A DNA stretch of 25,089 nucleotides from a virus (IMGVR_UViG_3300030098_000891:1-25089), one strand, 5' to 3'; positions 1 to 5,424 are shown, numbered from the stretch's first letter. The notes: generated by a model not told the origin, from the sequence alone. Translations and numbers: made by a program.

Positions 1-77
1 CTAATGTAAACAACAGTCATAGCTAGCATCATCAGGCGTGGGAGGATTTTCCATCTGTCTAGCATCTCAGGTGTCAT
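1..77 (-). CDS. Small membrane protein, holin-like (5' part only, runs off left edge)
   Basis: The first 25 codons are visible and begin MTPEMLDRWKILPRLMMLAM; the gene continues beyond position 1. The start is chosen because its ATG overlaps the stop of the upstream gene as ATGA (74-77), typical of coupling in this operon. The visible part is a short polar N-terminus followed by the beginning of a Met/Leu-rich hydrophobic helix. From memory, small proteins with this N-terminus are common near lysis genes of marine phages and have two membrane helices, so a holin-like or lysis-accessory role is plausible. This is recollection plus context, not proof. It may instead be a membrane protein unrelated to lysis. 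Confidence 0.6.
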   Translation of the reverse strand, partial: MTPEMLDRWKILPRLMMLAMTVVYI

Positions 78-574
78 AGTTCTATATTACCTCTGTCTAA
101 TTGAACAAGTCCATAAGTAATTGCGAATAGTACAGCAATACCAACAGCCAAGACAAGCGTTAAAACAACATACATAATAATCTTCTGCCTTAGAACTTGC
201 CTATCATATATCTCTTTTTGTCTACGCTTACGGATCTCACCTTCCATCTTGAGTAGCTCAGTCCATGCGTGTGTACCATGAGTAAACTTAATAAACTGTT
301 GAAGTTCGTATCGTTGTTCTTCTAAAGTTTTCTTGGCAGTAAAAGCTTGCAAAGCTTCTTGTTCTATACTCCCACGCTTAGTTAGTTTTTGAATGAAGGT
401 TGGATTCTTTGCTTGCTTATGTGCGTTCTCGATATCAGAAGCAGCAGACATCCAGTTCGACAAATCATTTGTCATACTCTGAATATCTTTACCAACTTGA
501 AACGCCCTTTTAATTCCGTTGAAAGCTGTATTTGCTGTTGCTACAGCAGCCGAAATTGTTAAAGGGTCTAACAT
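74..574 (-). CDS. Conserved marine-phage protein with one C-terminal membrane helix
   Basis: A 166-aa protein. Residues about 1-30 are small and Ala/Thr-rich (MLDPLTISAAVATANTAFNG), residues 75-130 are charged and helical with a basic stretch at 114-131 (EIRKRRQKEI), and residues about 132-156 form one strong transmembrane segment (Tyr-Val-Val-Leu to Ile-Thr-Tyr). The basic residues before the helix suggest that the long N-terminal part stays in the cytoplasm. I recall similar proteins in many marine podo- and myoviruses, always of unknown function. Its stop overlaps the next gene as ATGA, and a small membrane protein precedes it, so a role in lysis or membrane interaction fits the neighbourhood. 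No Shine-Dalgarno sequence is obvious before the ATG. Confidence 0.75.
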   Translation of the reverse strand: MLDPLTISAAVATANTAFNGIKRAFQVGKDIQSMTNDLSNWMSAASDIENAHKQAKNPTFIQKLTKRGSIEQEALQAFTAKKTLEEQRYELQQFIKFTHGTHAWTELLKMEGEIRKRRQKEIYDRQVLRQKIIMYVVLTLVLAVGIAVLFAITYGLVQLDRGNIEL

Positions 575-583
575 GTAACTAAG

Positions 584-745
584 CTAATAAACTTTTAGCA
601 AAACATTAATAAGCAAACCTATCACAGCAGAAATTCCACCAAGACCAACAAGTTCAATTCTCTTTAAGCGAAAGAAAATCTCCTTATACTGAATGTGATT
701 CTCAGTTTCTAGTTTAACTACTCTTGTTTCTAATGCTTTGGTCAT
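584..745 (-). CDS. 53-aa coiled-coil plus transmembrane protein, XhlA/holin-like
   Basis: A short gene in the gap between two clear genes. It begins MTKALETRVVKLETENHIQY and ends in KVY. Residues 1-32 are charged with heptad-like spacing (Leu, Val, Leu, Ile). Residues 33-52 are a hydrophobic helix containing Gly-Gly-Ile-Ser-Ala-Val-Ile-Gly-Leu-Leu. This layout (soluble helix, then one membrane helix, then almost nothing) is that of XhlA/haemolysin-type and class-II-like holin proteins. It starts 6 bases after the stop of the chaperone gene at 752-976 and ends 9 bases before the next gene, without a clear ribosome binding site, suggesting coupled translation. Holin or holin partner is inferred from topology and position only. 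Confidence 0.65.
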   Translation of the reverse strand: MTKALETRVVKLETENHIQYKEIFFRLKRIELVGLGGISAVIGLLINVLLKVY

Positions 746-751
746 AGCTTA

Positions 752-976
752 CTAACTCGGTTTTGTTGGAAAGGTTACACTCGACATATCAAGTAACAAT
801 TTTGTATCATCTAATTTTGGATTAGCAGTTTTAGGTAAATCTCTTAATGCTTGCCTATATGTTTTCCACTCATCTTTTTTACTATTTGATAAAGGACTAT
901 CAGACCCTTGTGTCCAATCACTTTGATTTAATAAGGCGTCTCTTTGTATTCTTAATAATATCTCTTCTTTTGTCAT
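752..976 (-). CDS. Tail-fibre assembly chaperone-like protein, copy B
   Basis: A 74-aa protein with the pattern of the phage tail assembly chaperone (Phage_tail_APC) group: an acidic helix, then Ser-Asp-Trp-Thr (19-22), Ser-Pro-Leu-Ser (27-30) and EWKTYRQALRDLPK (36-49), and a conserved tail SSVTFPTKPS (65-74). Such proteins lie directly downstream of fibre genes and are thought to help the fibre tip fold or trimerise. It follows the C1q-like fibre gene at 981-1517 by 4 bases and has an AGGAT ribosome binding site. It is a clear paralogue of the protein at 2609-2827; the two share the Trp-Thr, YRQALRDLP and C-terminal motifs but differ before residue 20. The fibre served is inferred from position. 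Confidence 0.8.
   Translation of the reverse strand: MTKEEILLRIQRDALLNQSDWTQGSDSPLSNSKKDEWKTYRQALRDLPKTANPKLDDTKLLLDMSSVTFPTKPS
771..793. repeat. 23-bp direct repeat, copy 1 (3' end of chaperone B)
   Basis: These 23 bases are identical to 2628-2650, in the same orientation, and the flanking eight bases on one side differ at a single position. They encode the conserved C-terminal Met-Ser-Ser-Val-Thr-Phe part of both chaperone paralogues. The remaining chaperone DNA is clearly more diverged, so the block stands out. Confidence 0.8.
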
Positions 977-980
977 TTTG

Positions 981-1517
981 TTATCCTATTAAAAACCCAG
1001 CAAAAATTTGATAATTCTTAGCAGTATAGTTTGTACGCCCTGTTCCATTTCCAGCATCACCGACCCTTACATAAGGCTGAAGTGTGTCATTTGCCGTATA
1101 CTGTCTTATTATAGTAGCTGAAAGAATATAATCGAGAGTAGCATGGGAACTTGTCATATATTCTTCTATAGTTTCTTCATCTGTACCAAATCCAGTCCCA
1201 TTCTGAATTAGCCCATGATACATTGTATTATCAACGGCAATGTTGTAAAAATTGTTTTTAAGTGTAAGACAATAAAACCCTGTTATGGGTACTGTAAATT
1301 TTCCTGTAGAAGTATTATAGTTTGTACCACCTTGTTGTGTAACATTGTTGTAAACTAGAGCTTGATTGCTTCCTGTACTAAATGCTAATTCACTTCCAGT
1401 ATACCATGCTTCAAACACAGGTTGGCTTGGCTTTAATATTCTACCACTACTATCAATTGTCATTCCAGTAGTGCCACCACTATGAGCAATCGTATCTACT
1501 TTTAATGTTGATGTCAT
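981..1517 (-). CDS. Short tail-fibre protein with C1q-like tip domain (copy B)
   Basis: A 178-aa protein in two parts. Residues 1-30 carry the attachment-like motif shared by three proteins of this window, with KVDTI at 6-10 and TTGMTIDSSGR at 16-26. Residues about 34-178 look like a C1q/TNF-type jelly roll: a Tyr-Asn-Asn-Val strand at 56-59, GGTNYNTSTGKFTVPITGFY at 63-82 and the closing strand FAGFLIG at 172-178. C1q-like trimers often form the distal receptor-binding tips of phage fibres. The gene has a GGAGAG ribosome binding site and is followed by its chaperone 4 bases later. Receptor binding is inferred from fold resemblance and position; it could also be a baseplate-proximal decoration. 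Confidence 0.78.
   Translation of the reverse strand: MTSTLKVDTIAHSGGTTGMTIDSSGRILKPSQPVFEAWYTGSELAFSTGSNQALVYNNVTQQGGTNYNTSTGKFTVPITGFYCLTLKNNFYNIAVDNTMYHGLIQNGTGFGTDEETIEEYMTSSHATLDYILSATIIRQYTANDTLQPYVRVGDAGNGTGRTNYTAKNYQIFAGFLIG
1441..1473. repeat. 33-bp near-identical repeat, copy 1 (shared fibre motif)
   Basis: This block matches 3253-3285 with two mismatches in 33 bases. It encodes the TTGMTIDSSGR segment of the short fibre. A 13-base core (taccactactatc) also occurs near 2164-2176 inside the long fibre gene, where it encodes Ile-Asp-Ser-Ser-Gly. Confidence 0.8.
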
Positions 1518-1528
1518 TATTTACTCTC

Positions 1529-2599
1529 CTATCCACAGTATAGAACGCAAGACACTAGCTTAACGTCTGTGCTACTATTCCCTATTGTTACCTTGCCGAT
1601 TGTCTTGCTCCTTACAATATCATCTGACTGCACTTTTGCTGTGCCATCTCCGTTGCTCTCTAGTAAGTCACCCTTTGCACACGCACCTGTTACACGCACA
1701 GAGCCTGTACCAACTGATGCAATCATTGCTTTTACATCTTCATTTTCTTCTATTGTTCTCCACCTTGAGAAAACACCATATACAGCTTTATCTCCTACGC
1801 TACTAGATACCTCTATCTTTGGGTGGTCTGCTCTATCTTGCTGTGATTTAGAACCATCTTTAGCAATAATTGTTTTAGTATCAACTGTGTCTATTGTACT
1901 TACAACAGTTCCTATAGGTGTGTCAGATGGTATGCCAGAACTTTCGTGTGAACCTTGAAAACCAGATAAAGATACTGTACTACCAGAAACAGTTATTTCT
2001 CCTTCTTCAGAACCTGCTTGATAAAATCGTATAAGGCTACCATCATTTGTTTGTCTGTTTACATCTAGTGGATTAGTACCTGCTCCTATATCAATGTTAC
2101 CATCTTGTGTCATACTGATGCCACTAACTTGTATGCCAGTATAAGTACTTCCAATGTTTACATTACCACTACTATCAATCCTCATGGCTTCTGCTGCTAC
2201 AGCACCATTTGGTCTAGTGATAAAAGCTAAACCACTTTCACTATCTCCCGATCCACTAAAACAAGCTATGCCACTTGCTCCATTATCGTAGGAAGAAGCA
2301 TCTGTTGCAAAAGCAATACCTGTTGCACAAGTGTCATCATCTGTGGGATTGTGTACATATATATCAGCATACGTTGTGTGGTCACTTGCATCAAAGTTTG
2401 TTGTTCGTGCAGAGGGTTGTATGTGCAACATACCCTTAGCAGGTGTAACTCCAATACCCACTCGTCCACTAGCATCTACCCTCATGCGTTCTGTATTAGC
2501 TGTCTTTACTGCAACCACATCATTAGTAGATAAATCTAATCCGCTATCTTGGTCGCCACTTTGATTGACTACTGTATCGACTTCAATTTTTGAAACCAT
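1529..2599 (-). CDS. Tail fibre/tailspike-like protein with conserved C-terminal domain
   Basis: A 356-aa protein. The N-terminus (MVSKIEVDTVV) matches the start of the two short C1q-like fibres. Residues about 35-56 contain ERMRVDASGRVGIGVTP, a motif common at fibre junctions, and a second copy of this theme (AMRIDSSGNVNIG) occurs near residues 138-150. The last 120 residues or so include a Trp-Arg segment and the motif GDLLESNGDGTAKVQSDDI before SKTIGKV. In other phages this type of ending is a trimerising or self-cleaving chaperone domain (peptidase_G2-like); I can see the resemblance but not a catalytic site with certainty. Ribosome binding site AGGAG. It lies between the two chaperone/C1q cassettes and probably forms part of the same host-recognition apparatus. 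Confidence 0.75.
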   Translation of the reverse strand: MVSKIEVDTVVNQSGDQDSGLDLSTNDVVAVKTANTERMRVDASGRVGIGVTPAKGMLHIQPSARTTNFDASDHTTYADIYVHNPTDDDTCATGIAFATDASSYDNGASGIACFSGSGDSESGLAFITRPNGAVAAEAMRIDSSGNVNIGSTYTGIQVSGISMTQDGNIDIGAGTNPLDVNRQTNDGSLIRFYQAGSEEGEITVSGSTVSLSGFQGSHESSGIPSDTPIGTVVSTIDTVDTKTIIAKDGSKSQQDRADHPKIEVSSSVGDKAVYGVFSRWRTIEENEDVKAMIASVGTGSVRVTGACAKGDLLESNGDGTAKVQSDDIVRSKTIGKVTIGNSSTDVKLVSCVLYCG

Positions 2600-2608
2600 G
2601 TCTTACTC

Positions 2609-2827
2609 CTATGATGGCTTTGTTGGGAAGGTTACACTCGACATATCAAGCATTATCCCTTTTACTTTCGGACTAGCTCCTTTAGGCAAATCTCTTAACG
2701 CTTGTCTGTATGTTTTCCATTCGGTTTGTTTGCTATCTGATAACGGACTATCTGGCATGACTGTCCAATCACTATCTGACAACATTTTATTTCTTACATT
2801 CCTTAATTCATTCATTTCATTTGACAT
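2609..2827 (-). CDS. Tail-fibre assembly chaperone-like protein, copy A
   Basis: A 72-aa paralogue of the 752-976 protein. It shows Ser-Asp-Ser-Asp-Trp-Thr, Pro-Asp-Ser-Pro-Leu-Ser, EWKTYRQALRDLPK and the identical end SSVTFPTKPS. The N-terminal helix (NEMNELRNVRNKM) is different from copy B, which would fit different fibre partners. It follows the C1q-like gene at 2832-3326 by 4 bases, and an AGGAT ribosome binding site lies in that gap, exactly the same arrangement as copy B. Phage_tail_APC-like assignment is from motif memory. Confidence 0.8.
   Translation of the reverse strand: MSNEMNELRNVRNKMLSDSDWTVMPDSPLSDSKQTEWKTYRQALRDLPKGASPKVKGIMLDMSSVTFPTKPS
2628..2650. repeat. 23-bp direct repeat, copy 2 (3' end of chaperone A)
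   Basis: Identical over 23 bases to 771-793; the copies are about 1.86 kb apart and bracket the long fibre plus one C1q-like fibre. Confidence 0.8.
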
Positions 2828-2831
2828 TTCT

Positions 2832-3326
2832 TTATCCTATTAACGTAAATGATGCCGCAGTATATCTTGAAGCATCTGTACCTGCTTTATTTATATCTCT
2901 ATCTCCACCAGAACCTTGTTGAAAATCTATGTATTGAGATGCAGTTGCTTCTACAGTTGTGGTAAACTCAATTTGTCTACTAGAGTCTACAAAAAATCTA
3001 TGGATATCAGAACCACTTAAACGTAAAGCAATATCAATATTTGCTGCTGAGTCTATGATTAATTGACAAGTAACTAAATATAAACCAGCTACAGGACAAA
3101 CATATCTGTAATTTGTTGTATCGTAATTTGAACCTGTTTCACGCACTATAGCTGCAAAAGGTATAACAGCGTTGTTTGCTACAGTATCGTACCCACCTGT
3201 AGCCGTTGCATTAATAACTACCAAAGCATGAGGTCTTGTAGGAGTTAATACTCTACCACTACTATCTATCGTCATTCCAGTAGTGTTATTGGTATGAGAT
3301 ATTGTTTCTACTTGTAGCTTACTCAT
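2832..3326 (-). CDS. Short tail-fibre protein with C1q-like tip domain (copy A)
   Basis: A 164-aa protein that starts MSKLQVETIS and repeats the TTGMTIDSSGR motif at residues 15-25. I choose the ATG at 3326 rather than one four codons upstream, because 3326 gives an ATGA overlap with the previous gene and a length that matches the paralogue at 981-1517. The rest (about 33-164) is a C1q-like beta domain: IPFAAIVRETGSNYDTTNYR leads into CPVAGLYLV, and the protein ends SFTLIG. Apart from the first 30 residues it is strongly diverged from copy B, as expected for tips recognising different surface structures. A chaperone gene follows directly. Confidence 0.77.
   Translation of the reverse strand: MSKLQVETISHTNNTTGMTIDSSGRVLTPTRPHALVVINATATGGYDTVANNAVIPFAAIVRETGSNYDTTNYRYVCPVAGLYLVTCQLIIDSAANIDIALRLSGSDIHRFFVDSSRQIEFTTTVEATASQYIDFQQGSGGDRDINKAGTDASRYTAASFTLIG
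3253..3285. repeat. 33-bp near-identical repeat, copy 2 (shared fibre motif)
   Basis: Matches 1441-1473 with two mismatches in 33 bases, in the same orientation and the same place relative to the start of a C1q-like fibre gene. Confidence 0.8.
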
Positions 3327-3508
3327 ACTATCACCCATATGCCAGATACAGTTACAGTAGCACTAGCTCCAATCGTAATTGGTCCAGCTGATACAGCATT
3401 GTTACTTGCATCTATTGTGAGTGAAGTAGCTACTGTGTTTTCTCCTTGCTTTATAACAGGCTCATACGAAGTAGCAGTTGCATCTTTACCTAAGTTATGT
3501 TCACCCAT
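3323..3508 (-). CDS. Small fibre-associated structural protein (61 aa)
   Basis: Begins MGEHNLGKDATATSYEPVIK and ends GASATVTVSGIWVIV. The ending resembles a short beta-structured motif (xTVxSGxxWVIV) seen at the ends of many phage fibre and tip proteins. The ATG overlaps the preceding stop as TAATG, and its own TGA overlaps the next gene as ATGA, so it is firmly embedded in the operon. It is probably a small tip or collar component; the function is otherwise unknown. Confidence 0.65.
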   Translation of the reverse strand: MGEHNLGKDATATSYEPVIKQGENTVATSLTIDASNNAVSAGPITIGASATVTVSGIWVIV

Positions 3509-3867
3509 TATGTAATCTCCATAATACTCATTGTAACGGAGAGCTTGTCAGCTACAGAGCAATCAATCTGTATTTTATCTGTAGTCTCCAAAACAATCTT
3601 TGCTCCCATTAAAACACTTGTGCTTTGTCCTACTGCAAGTGGAATATCGTTAGCTAAGAATGTCGTTGTGTTGGTGGCTGCTCGACCACCTCCACTTGTA
3701 TCTGAAACTAACTTTACATCTGCTGTGACTTGAGCAGTATGTACGTTACACAATACTAATCCTAAAACTACTGTCGTTGTACTACCTGGAGTTGTATACA
3801 AGTCTTCTGGAGTACCAGCACTTGCTGGCATTACATCATGACTTACAACTTTAAATGTATTTGCCAT
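3508..3867 (-). CDS. Small virion structural protein (119 aa)
   Basis: A beta-rich, Thr/Val-rich protein that begins MANTFKVVSHDV and contains the core TTTVVLGLVLCNV followed by alternating polar and hydrophobic strands, ending SVTMSIMEIT. A strong AAAGGAG ribosome binding site precedes the ATG. I recall similar small proteins next to fibre genes of marine phages, annotated only as hypothetical or structural. No signal peptide or membrane helix is visible. Position between the T7-type fibre and the smaller fibre genes suggests an adaptor or tip protein. Confidence 0.68.
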   Translation of the reverse strand: MANTFKVVSHDVMPASAGTPEDLYTTPGSTTTVVLGLVLCNVHTAQVTADVKLVSDTSGGGRAATNTTTFLANDIPLAVGQSTSVLMGAKIVLETTDKIQIDCSVADKLSVTMSIMEIT

Positions 3868-3882
3868 ATTAAATCTCCTTTA

Positions 3883-5424
3883 TCATCCTAAGGCAATTGC
3901 AAGTGCAACACTATTGGCTTCTGCTGTTGCTTCAGTAGTGCCTCCAATGTCACTTAATAGTTCTGAAGCAGAACGACCCTCAATAGATGTGCCATCTACT
4001 CTTAAAAAATCATTATCAACAACACTAGCATTTGCTACCAGAACATTCCCATTTGATATACCAGTTGATAGTGTTGCTGTTGTTGTAATAGAAGTACCAT
4101 TTAATGTCATAGCATCAGCTTCTAATGTTCCATCAACATCTACATCACCAGAGATATCTAAATCTGCAAATACAGAAGTTCCAGTACCAGTTACTGTTCC
4201 TCCTACTCCTAAGTTTCCAGCAATAGTAACATTTGTTGTGCCAGTAGGAATCTCAATAACATCATTATCAGCATCATTCTTTATCGTTACATCATTAGTA
4301 GAACCTTGACCAGTTAGTATCAATCCTTCTGCACTTGTATAACCTATTGCAGCATTATCTCCAGCAGACGTATCGCCAGTAGCTTCAAGAGTTGCACCAG
4401 TTATTACACCAGAAGCAGTAAGAGCAGTTATGTTTGGACTTCCTCCTGACCCAGCAAGTGAAGCCATGTCAGCAATAACAGAGCTAGTAGCAAGTAAATT
4501 CAAATCCTCAACTATAGCACTTGTTGCCAATAAATTTAGGTCAGTAACAATATCAGATGTTGCCAATGTATTTAAGTCATTAACGATATCTGTTGTTGCT
4601 AGTGTGTTAAGGTCGCTAACTATATCATCTGTTGCTAGTTTATTTAAGTCAGCAACAATATCACTTGTAGCAAGAGTATTCAAATCGCTAACAATGTCAC
4701 TTGTAGCTAAGATATTTAGGTCTTCAACGATTGCACTTGTCGCTAGTGTATTTAAATCAGATACAAAGTCTGATGTTATTAATGAAGCAACTCCAGCAAC
4801 ACTAGAAACTGCTGATGCTATTCCAGCAACTGTTGTTACGTTAGCTTGTATGCCAGCTACAGTAGTTACGTTAGCAGAAATTCCAGCAACAGTAGTTATA
4901 TTAGCAGTTATTGCAGCTAATGAACTTACGTTAGCAATAGTTGGTCCAGCTTCGGCAGCACCAGTAGTAGCATTAAACCCAAGAACTGTTCCTACTCTAT
5001 CTGCTTTAAGAGGAAGCTCCATAGACACAGCAGAATCAGAATCTTGCAATCGTACAGATCTTCCTATTGTATCATCAACGTCAGCATCAATCGCAACCAG
5101 TTTATCTAGCTCAGTATTCAGAGAAGAAATATTAAAAGCACCTTGAGTAGGGAAGTCAGTAGTTCTCTCAAGTGCTATGTCTCTTGTTATCACTACAGTC
5201 GAGCCACCAGTAGCACCAGTAACAGACATTGAAACTGTACCAGTAGAACCATCTCCACCTGATACAGAGTAATGAGTTGTTAATGTTTTTAGTGTTCCAT
5301 CTACATAAACATTTAAATCTGCTTCAGCAAAAAACTCAAAGTTAACTGCGAATGAAGTTGTTGTTGCTCCTTGAGAAACGGCATACGAAACTCTTGGCGT
5401 GTTATTTGAAACTGATATTGTCAT
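3883..5424 (-). CDS. T7 gp17-type tail fibre with tandem repeat shaft
   Basis: A 513-aa protein whose first 145 residues follow the T7 tail-fibre N-terminal domain that attaches to the tail tube: SYAVSQGATTTSFAVNFEFF, then VYVDGT, a YSVSG strand, VVITRDIALERTTDF and the Asn-Thr-Glu-Leu-Asp-Lys helix leading to IGRSVRLQDSD. The shaft consists of five 10-residue repeats (166-215; theme VTTVAGIxAN) and nine 12-residue repeats (220-327; theme IVxDLNxLATSD). The C-terminal part (330-513) is Thr/Gly/Asp-rich with NLGVGG and DVDVDG motifs and a final helix, a typical adaptor end to which other tip proteins bind. It lies directly after the ejection proteins, as in T7. Attachment to the tail is established family knowledge; the adaptor role of the C-terminus is inference. 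Confidence 0.87.
   Translation of the reverse strand: MTISVSNNTPRVSYAVSQGATTTSFAVNFEFFAEADLNVYVDGTLKTLTTHYSVSGGDGSTGTVSMSVTGATGGSTVVITRDIALERTTDFPTQGAFNISSLNTELDKLVAIDADVDDTIGRSVRLQDSDSAVSMELPLKADRVGTVLGFNATTGAAEAGPTIANVSSLAAITANITTVAGISANVTTVAGIQANVTTVAGIASAVSSVAGVASLITSDFVSDLNTLATSAIVEDLNILATSDIVSDLNTLATSDIVADLNKLATDDIVSDLNTLATTDIVNDLNTLATSDIVTDLNLLATSAIVEDLNLLATSSVIADMASLAGSGGSPNITALTASGVITGATLEATGDTSAGDNAAIGYTSAEGLILTGQGSTNDVTIKNDADNDVIEIPTGTTNVTIAGNLGVGGTVTGTGTSVFADLDISGDVDVDGTLEADAMTLNGTSITTTATLSTGISNGNVLVANASVVDNDFLRVDGTSIEGRSASELLSDIGGTTEATAEANSVALAIALG
4444..4767 (-). repeat. Tandem 36-bp coding repeat, nine units
   Basis: Nine 12-residue units occupy residues 220-327 of the tail fibre, with the consensus Ile-Val-x-Asp-Leu-Asn-x-Leu-Ala-Thr-x-x. 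The last unit is degenerate. The DNA units differ mainly at synonymous positions, so the array is old or under selection at the protein level. Confidence 0.85.
4780..4929 (-). repeat. Tandem 30-bp coding repeat, five units
   Basis: Five 10-residue units occupy residues 166-215 of the tail fibre, with the theme Val-Thr-Thr-Val-Ala-Gly-Ile-x-Ala-Asn; the first and last are degenerate (Ser-Ser instead of Thr-Thr). They directly precede the 12-residue array. Confidence 0.8.

Follow-up and report, generated by a model that had tools for sequence, protein, structure and literature searches.

The stretch of DNA analysed here, referred to as the window, is a whole virus record of 25,089 bases and covers the structural half of a marine, T7-like phage. 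Its genes all lie on the minus strand, in the order terminase, portal, capsid, tail proteins, large internal proteins and a tail fibre with LED-type repeats, followed by an array of short fibre genes; the upstream names derive partly from this order and partly from sequence. The terminase is 64.6% identical to that of Pelagibacter phage EXVC031P Hodr, one of the nearest cultured relatives, which are SAR11 phages, and the LED-type repeats (3883-5424) are common to the tail fibres of Skadi phages. SAR11, among the most abundant ocean bacteria, is the likely host, as judged from these nearest cultured relatives. The array and its borders contain the following features:

3883-5424, minus strand: long tail fibre with LED-type repeats and a phage tail N-terminus (PHROG 1640 tail protein, 1e-12; LED_rpt 9.8e-6, below the cut-off)
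3508-3867, minus strand: 119-aa virion structural protein, conserved left anchor (57-58% to virion structural proteins of HTVC010P/HTVC034P)
3323-3508, minus strand: 61-aa protein, conserved left border, also at the left border in related loci (PHROG 5342 tail fibre C-terminus, 6.6e-6)
2832-3326, minus strand: fibre A, putative docking N-terminus MSKLQVETISHTNNTTGMTIDSSGR and predicted C1q/TNF-fold tip (AlphaFold2 pLDDT 88.2; Z 18.2 to the C1q head 1pk6_B; Pfam C1q 22.9 bits)
2609-2827, minus strand: putative chaperone A, 72 aa, Phage_tail_APC (PF16778, 9.2e-17; PHROG tail fibre assembly, 1.3e-19)
1529-2599, minus strand: fibre M, longer middle fibre with the end VSCVLYCG and no chaperone (PHROG tail fibre, ~1e-9 to 1e-7)
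981-1517, minus strand: fibre B, putative docking N-terminus MTSTLKVDTIAHSGGTTGMTIDSSGR and predicted C1q/TNF-fold tip (Pfam C1q 3.3e-8; AlphaFold2 pLDDT 80.9; Z 16.3 to the C1q domain 4ous)
752-976, minus strand: putative chaperone B, 74 aa, Phage_tail_APC (PF16778, 1.5e-17)
584-745, minus strand: 53-aa small membrane-type protein, right border (coiled-coil and one hydrophobic stretch by eye; conserved in related loci)
74-574, minus strand: 166-aa protein, right anchor (PHROG 32327, unknown function, 7.8e-10; conserved in related loci)
600-1457, minus strand: block with the fibre B tip, chaperone B and most of 584-745, common to loci L174/L176 (3 mismatches in 858 nt)
2482-2618, minus strand: left junction of a middle-fibre swap with locus L100 (0 mismatches in the 708 nt before, 18 in the next 136)

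The longest open reading frame of fibre A begins at 3338, and an alternative ATG at 3326 overlaps the stop codon of the 61-aa gene. The start at 3326, which the original prediction had used, was judged the likelier one. The 61-aa protein is similar to the C-terminus of large fibres (positions 3274-3319 of the 3319 in the PHROG 5342 profile) and may be a capping or docking piece, and the long fibre, the upstream neighbour of the array, is a possible carrier of the small fibres.

The two fibre-chaperone pairs, A and B, share their order, strand and a fibre-to-chaperone gap of exactly 4 bases (2828-2831 and 977-980). Identity between the fibres is 39% and confined to the first ~90 aa (BLASTP E 3e-19); the chaperones are 64% identical over their whole length (E 3e-30), with the common ending DMSSVTFPTKPS. 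The likeness extends to the DNA, as repeats of 72 nt at 81% (1433-1504 / 3245-3316), 111 nt at 77% (812-922 / 2663-2773) and 35 nt at 94% (759-793 / 2616-2650). By these comparisons the likeness is far beyond chance and the two pairs are homologous. The original prediction had described both pairs, with conserved N-termini, diverged tips, shared chaperone ends and a third, longer fibre between them, and this description held: the fibre likeness stops at ~90 aa, the common ending is present in both chaperones, and fibre M begins with a short related N-terminal stretch, MVSKIEVDT, on a body of another kind and is not followed by a chaperone. We also considered DNA-level recombination islands at the conserved ends. 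Codon conservation in the conserved ends of diverged chaperones was no higher than in the middle, and the share of common chaperone tail codons was 0.48 for within-genome copies versus 0.41 between genomes, a difference reached in 596 of 10,000 resamples. Since these codon-level tests were negative, this candidate was rejected, and the conserved islands are read as protein-level conservation.

The AlphaFold2 models of fibres A and B, both monomers, show the jelly-roll of the gC1q head over about 124-127 residues (Z 18.2 and 16.3, respectively), and Foldseek searches with the same models also match gC1q-type domains. Fibre B is a member of the Pfam C1q family (PF00386; 34.2 bits against a cut-off of 23.7, E 3.3e-8). 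Fibre A, at 22.9 bits, falls short of this cut-off by 0.8 bits, and is therefore classed as C1q-like by fold and not as a Pfam member. Profile searches seeded with either tip converge on the same ~118 ORFs, in loci drawn from the best 80 matches per scan, and the tip family profile matches cerebellin, adiponectin and C1q in the PDB. Unrelated folds of the two tips had been named as an outcome that would speak against the original prediction; instead, both are predicted to adopt the C1q/TNF fold, fibre A clearly so. The tips probably form trimers. Both chaperones belong to the Phage_tail_APC family (PF16778; 63.6 and 61.1 bits against a cut-off of 26.6), and because of this membership they are predicted to act on their fibres. 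Fibre M gave no Pfam match up to E 1 and so has no C-terminal S74 domain (PF13884), unlike the middle fibres of L100 and L174, in which S74 is present. Its ending, GDLLESNGDGTA...VLYCG (1529-1900), occurs in ~80 viral contigs among the matches listed, many times on unrelated fibre bodies, and itself has no Pfam match; by sequence, it is a common unnamed fibre end domain.

Related loci were taken from the best 80 matches per scan of viral contigs, mostly metagenomic, so the counts given here describe close relatives, and the fibre classes were assigned with profiles built in this analysis. In related pelagiphage-like contigs, the array is bounded by the 61-aa gene on one side and the 53-aa and 166-aa genes on the other, and in ~50 related arrays fibres fill this region on one strand. 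When cassette number was compared across these relatives, a check proposed with the original prediction, three short fibres were usual (exactly three in 24 non-redundant loci among the best 80 matches per scan), and tip swaps were seen. Four fibre classes were distinguished: C1q tips with a 72-77-aa APC chaperone; long fibres that start with MVSKIEVDT and end in an S74 domain or VLYCG, without a chaperone; tips ending in EIAQ, some of them with a 137-aa APC chaperone; and class IV, in which C1q tips sit on another N-terminus (MTSTLKVRNIEMGEG) and have a different partner of ~91 aa. They differ in their assembly solutions, namely an APC chaperone, the partner of ~91 aa, an S74 domain within the fibre itself or nothing that was recognised. 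Among the best 80 matches per scan, a recognised chaperone follows 54 of the 82 C1q tips and none of the 31 S74/YCG fibres, and the other 28 C1q tips have no partner recognised by our profiles. A strict tip-chaperone rule was rejected on these counts; they amount to a tendency.

Several individual loci add to this picture. L011 carries three fibre-chaperone cassettes in tandem. In the place where one would look for an APC chaperone, class-IV C1q fibres are followed by a protein of ~91-97 aa (L103:10913-11188, L195:5638-5913, L136:8832-9125); the L103 copy gave no Pfam or PHROG match, and the protein may be an undescribed fibre chaperone. Six loci (L119, L121, L123, L125, L151 and L161) have the same borders and enclose 4-5 proteins of ~120-165 aa of no recognised fibre class. 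In Pelagibacter phage Hodr (L183:5620-8728), larger and small genes alternate (237/97, 276/60 and 270/87 aa); two of the large genes match the tip profiles, the small ones gave no APC match, and the region looks like three fibre-plus-helper pairs. This record (OQ414635.1) is titled Hodr EXVC031P and has locus tags reading EXVC032PBaldr, a possible naming mix-up. Among cultured pelagiphages, HTVC026P gave two matches to the tip profiles and has an APC gene.

Across the arrays, the very first residues of the fibre N-termini tend to go with the position of the gene, and the 20-30 residues after them with the tip class. The single common docking base of the original prediction is therefore too simple. 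Slot-specific N-termini were seen as 63% versus 51% identity over five residues in different-class pairs, which none of 500 shuffles reached; this small effect weakly supports slot specificity, which we keep as a hypothesis.

Both pairs are under purifying selection and lie in one unbroken gene run. The dN/dS values are ~0.5 for fibre A and ~0.2 for chaperone A (against L041) and ~0.17 for fibre B and ~0.07 for chaperone B (against L105); with all four below 1, neither pair is degraded, an outcome that the original prediction had set out to be checked. No terminator-like site was found in the array region, and a promoter scan gave 20 sites where 19.3 were expected. Within the window, a fragment record, no near-perfect inverted repeat was found, and the one 23-nt pair, at 87% (790-812 / 3386-3408), encloses both cassettes. 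These arms, together with the presence of two paralogous pairs, would fit a reading in which the cassettes are alternatives, with one C1q tip per virion and the other spare or chosen by a switch. However, both arms fall within genes, and 18 pairs of this kind occur, which we judge to be chance level, and the purifying selection on both pairs and the ~50 related arrays (best 80 matches per scan) filled with fibres on one strand also speak against it, leaving this reading unlikely. On the inverted repeats of the window, an invertible switch of the Mu/P1 type found no support; no convincing invertible segment was seen. Because purifying selection coincides with the lack of a terminator-like site and of a convincing inverted repeat in the window, the data favour joint use of the tips over a switch, and several tips may be displayed together on the virion. 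Thus, where the original prediction had the virion either carry or choose between several tips, the first option gains from the related docking N-termini, the swaps in relatives, the same fold and the intactness of both pairs, and the second loses with the single strand, the selection on both pairs and the lack of an invertible segment or terminator-like site.

The C1q-like proteins might instead be tail decorations or caps, their variation being neutral or immune-like drift. C1q/TNF folds do serve in non-receptor roles, and exosporium proteins are among the structural matches of the tips. Against this stand the tail-fibre neighbourhood and the tail-fibre chaperones, the constraint within alleles as opposed to replacement between alleles, and the match of the fibre B model to a solved cell-binding domain, that of the short tail fibre of cyanophage A-1(L) (8ke9; Z 14.4, 139 residues). 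In addition, such proteins were proposed as receptor-binding by Mizuno et al. (PMC3909814). We consider a decorative role quite unlikely and putative receptor binding the better account of the tips.

Comparisons between contigs revealed exchange of the cassettes. L100 (contig 3300030099_000907) matches the window at 99.4% over 9.4 kb on one side of the array and 99.2% on the other, and has a different middle fibre, with an S74 end; no mismatch occurs over the 708 nt of fibre A and chaperone A, and the differences begin in the last codons of chaperone A. L100 also has a 50-aa hybrid gene (L100:10069-10221) made up of the beginning of a class-IV fibre and the final codons of a VLYCG-type one. 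It is apparently a scar of recombination; the two sources share ~5-6 bases at the join, far below the assembly k-mer, and an assembly join is hard to invoke here. Outside the array, L195 (from a contig of 33.9 kb) shares 95-97% identity with the window. Its A tip and chaperone are different ones, the alignment stopping at window position 3231, shortly after the conserved N-terminus; its middle fibre is a hybrid between the L100 type and that of the window, and its slot B holds a class-IV fibre and ~91-aa partner, with edges at 1497, in codon 7 of fibre B, and at 757, within the final codons of chaperone B.

Conversely, backbones of ~80-88% identity carry a fibre B tip and chaperone B that match those of the window at 99-99.7%. 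The L174/L176 block (1457-600, 3 mismatches in 858 nt) lies in a backbone of ~88%, and L105 differs from window 1457-783 by 7 mismatches in 675 nt, with a flank gene at ~80%; both blocks start at 1457, in the IDSSGR codons. L174 and L176 belong to one contig of 32,411 bases (IMGVR_UViG_3300030110_000183), which is probably circular and near complete, since fibre B is split over its two ends. Many further locus pairs have left flanks at 93-99% and some or all tips unalignable as DNA, and in five independent cases a tip is shared at 92% or more with at least one flank gene below 90%. Often, a breakpoint falls within the conserved N-terminal part of a fibre or at the very end of a chaperone gene, in its last codons. 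As judged from these contigs, tip cassettes are exchanged one at a time among relatives. That the swaps are instead assembly chimeras, joined at the conserved N-termini and chaperone ends, would suit the coincidence of junctions with conserved segments and the single contig behind L100, but is very unlikely given the recurrence of the window arrangement at 99.8% in a second metagenome contig (L004), identical arrays in several samples (e.g. L088/L089 and L096/L098), the short join of the hybrid gene, and the fact that the L105 and L174 blocks start at one left edge and have three differences from the window in common. Five Skadi isolates lack the array and have a SPRY gene in its place, so they are uninformative as a clonal control, and a phage DNA search with the B cassette gave as its sole match 58 bases of P-GSP1.

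The short tail fibre domain of cyanophage A-1(L) has the fold predicted for fibre B and is part of a longer fibre. We know of no paired APC cassette in that phage. In HTVC010P-like pelagiphages, C1q-domain proteins adjoin the tail fibre within metaviromic islands, with a well-recruiting N-terminus and a variable tip, and tail fibre assembly genes are present too (Mizuno et al. 2014, PMC3909814); C1q tips in the variable islands of this same phage group are thus already reported, and our contig comparisons agree with such an island. In its relevant passages that study deals with single C1q genes and read recruitment, whereas the present analysis concerns duplicated cassettes and mapped junctions, and the words 'chaperone', 'cassette' and 'recombination' are absent from the available passages of the paper. 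A conserved hypervariable region at the fibre genes of HTVC010P-type phages has also been described (PMC10504331). In Alteromonas phages A5 and V22, as here, a fibre and its downstream chaperone travel between marine phages as one host-recognition module; those chaperones are of the DUF4376 type (~195-240 aa), the fibres are larger and the exchange is between distant phages, whereas several slots per array are seen here, and V22 needs its chaperone, of another family, for an active fibre but A5 does not (PMC10579305). Conserved motifs likewise flank a variable adhesin as crossover points at the T-even distal fibre locus (Tetart et al. 1998, cited in PMC7468147), where one adhesin is swapped, on long fibres; the likeness lies in the way the two systems work. 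In cryoconite phages, core genomes that are nearly the same similarly carry C1q or fibre variants that can replace each other; these are Mu-like and other freshwater-ice phages with a single C1q gene, and no chaperone cassette appears in the relevant passages (PMC7468147). Unlike a diversity-generating retroelement, which mutates adenines only, the exchange seen here replaces whole tips. Against the literature as far as it was available, what is likely new is the tip and chaperone as a unit, the several slots between fixed borders, the several assembly solutions and the mapped junctions.

Taken together, we think it probable that the region is an exchangeable adhesin array of a pelagiphage-like podovirus, which would co-express several receptor-binding tips, each as a cassette. 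Three short fibre genes between fixed borders would be expressed together from one gene run, and each fibre would dock by its short N-terminus and grip surface receptors of the host with a variable tip, probably a trimer. The APC chaperone encoded 4 bases downstream would fold or trimerise the C1q-like tip, and the middle fibres would have their own folding domain or need none. Recombination would swap one cassette, a tip with its chaperone, per event, often by crossing over within the conserved docking part of the fibre or the chaperone's final codons, so that the docking parts would be kept and the grip changed. More tentatively, and at present doubtful, each position may have its own docking address with joint display of three tips, so that cassette exchange yields a combinatorial host range and the tip type dictates which helper travels along.

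The array bears on how SAR11 phages match the varied surfaces of their cells. With its fixed borders, tip slots and recurring cassettes, the exchange could be counted in long-read viromes and tested with purified tips, and the arrays offer a natural set of fibre-chaperone pairs for learning how chaperones match tips. If this account is true, tip exchange would let a phage alter which cells it grips.
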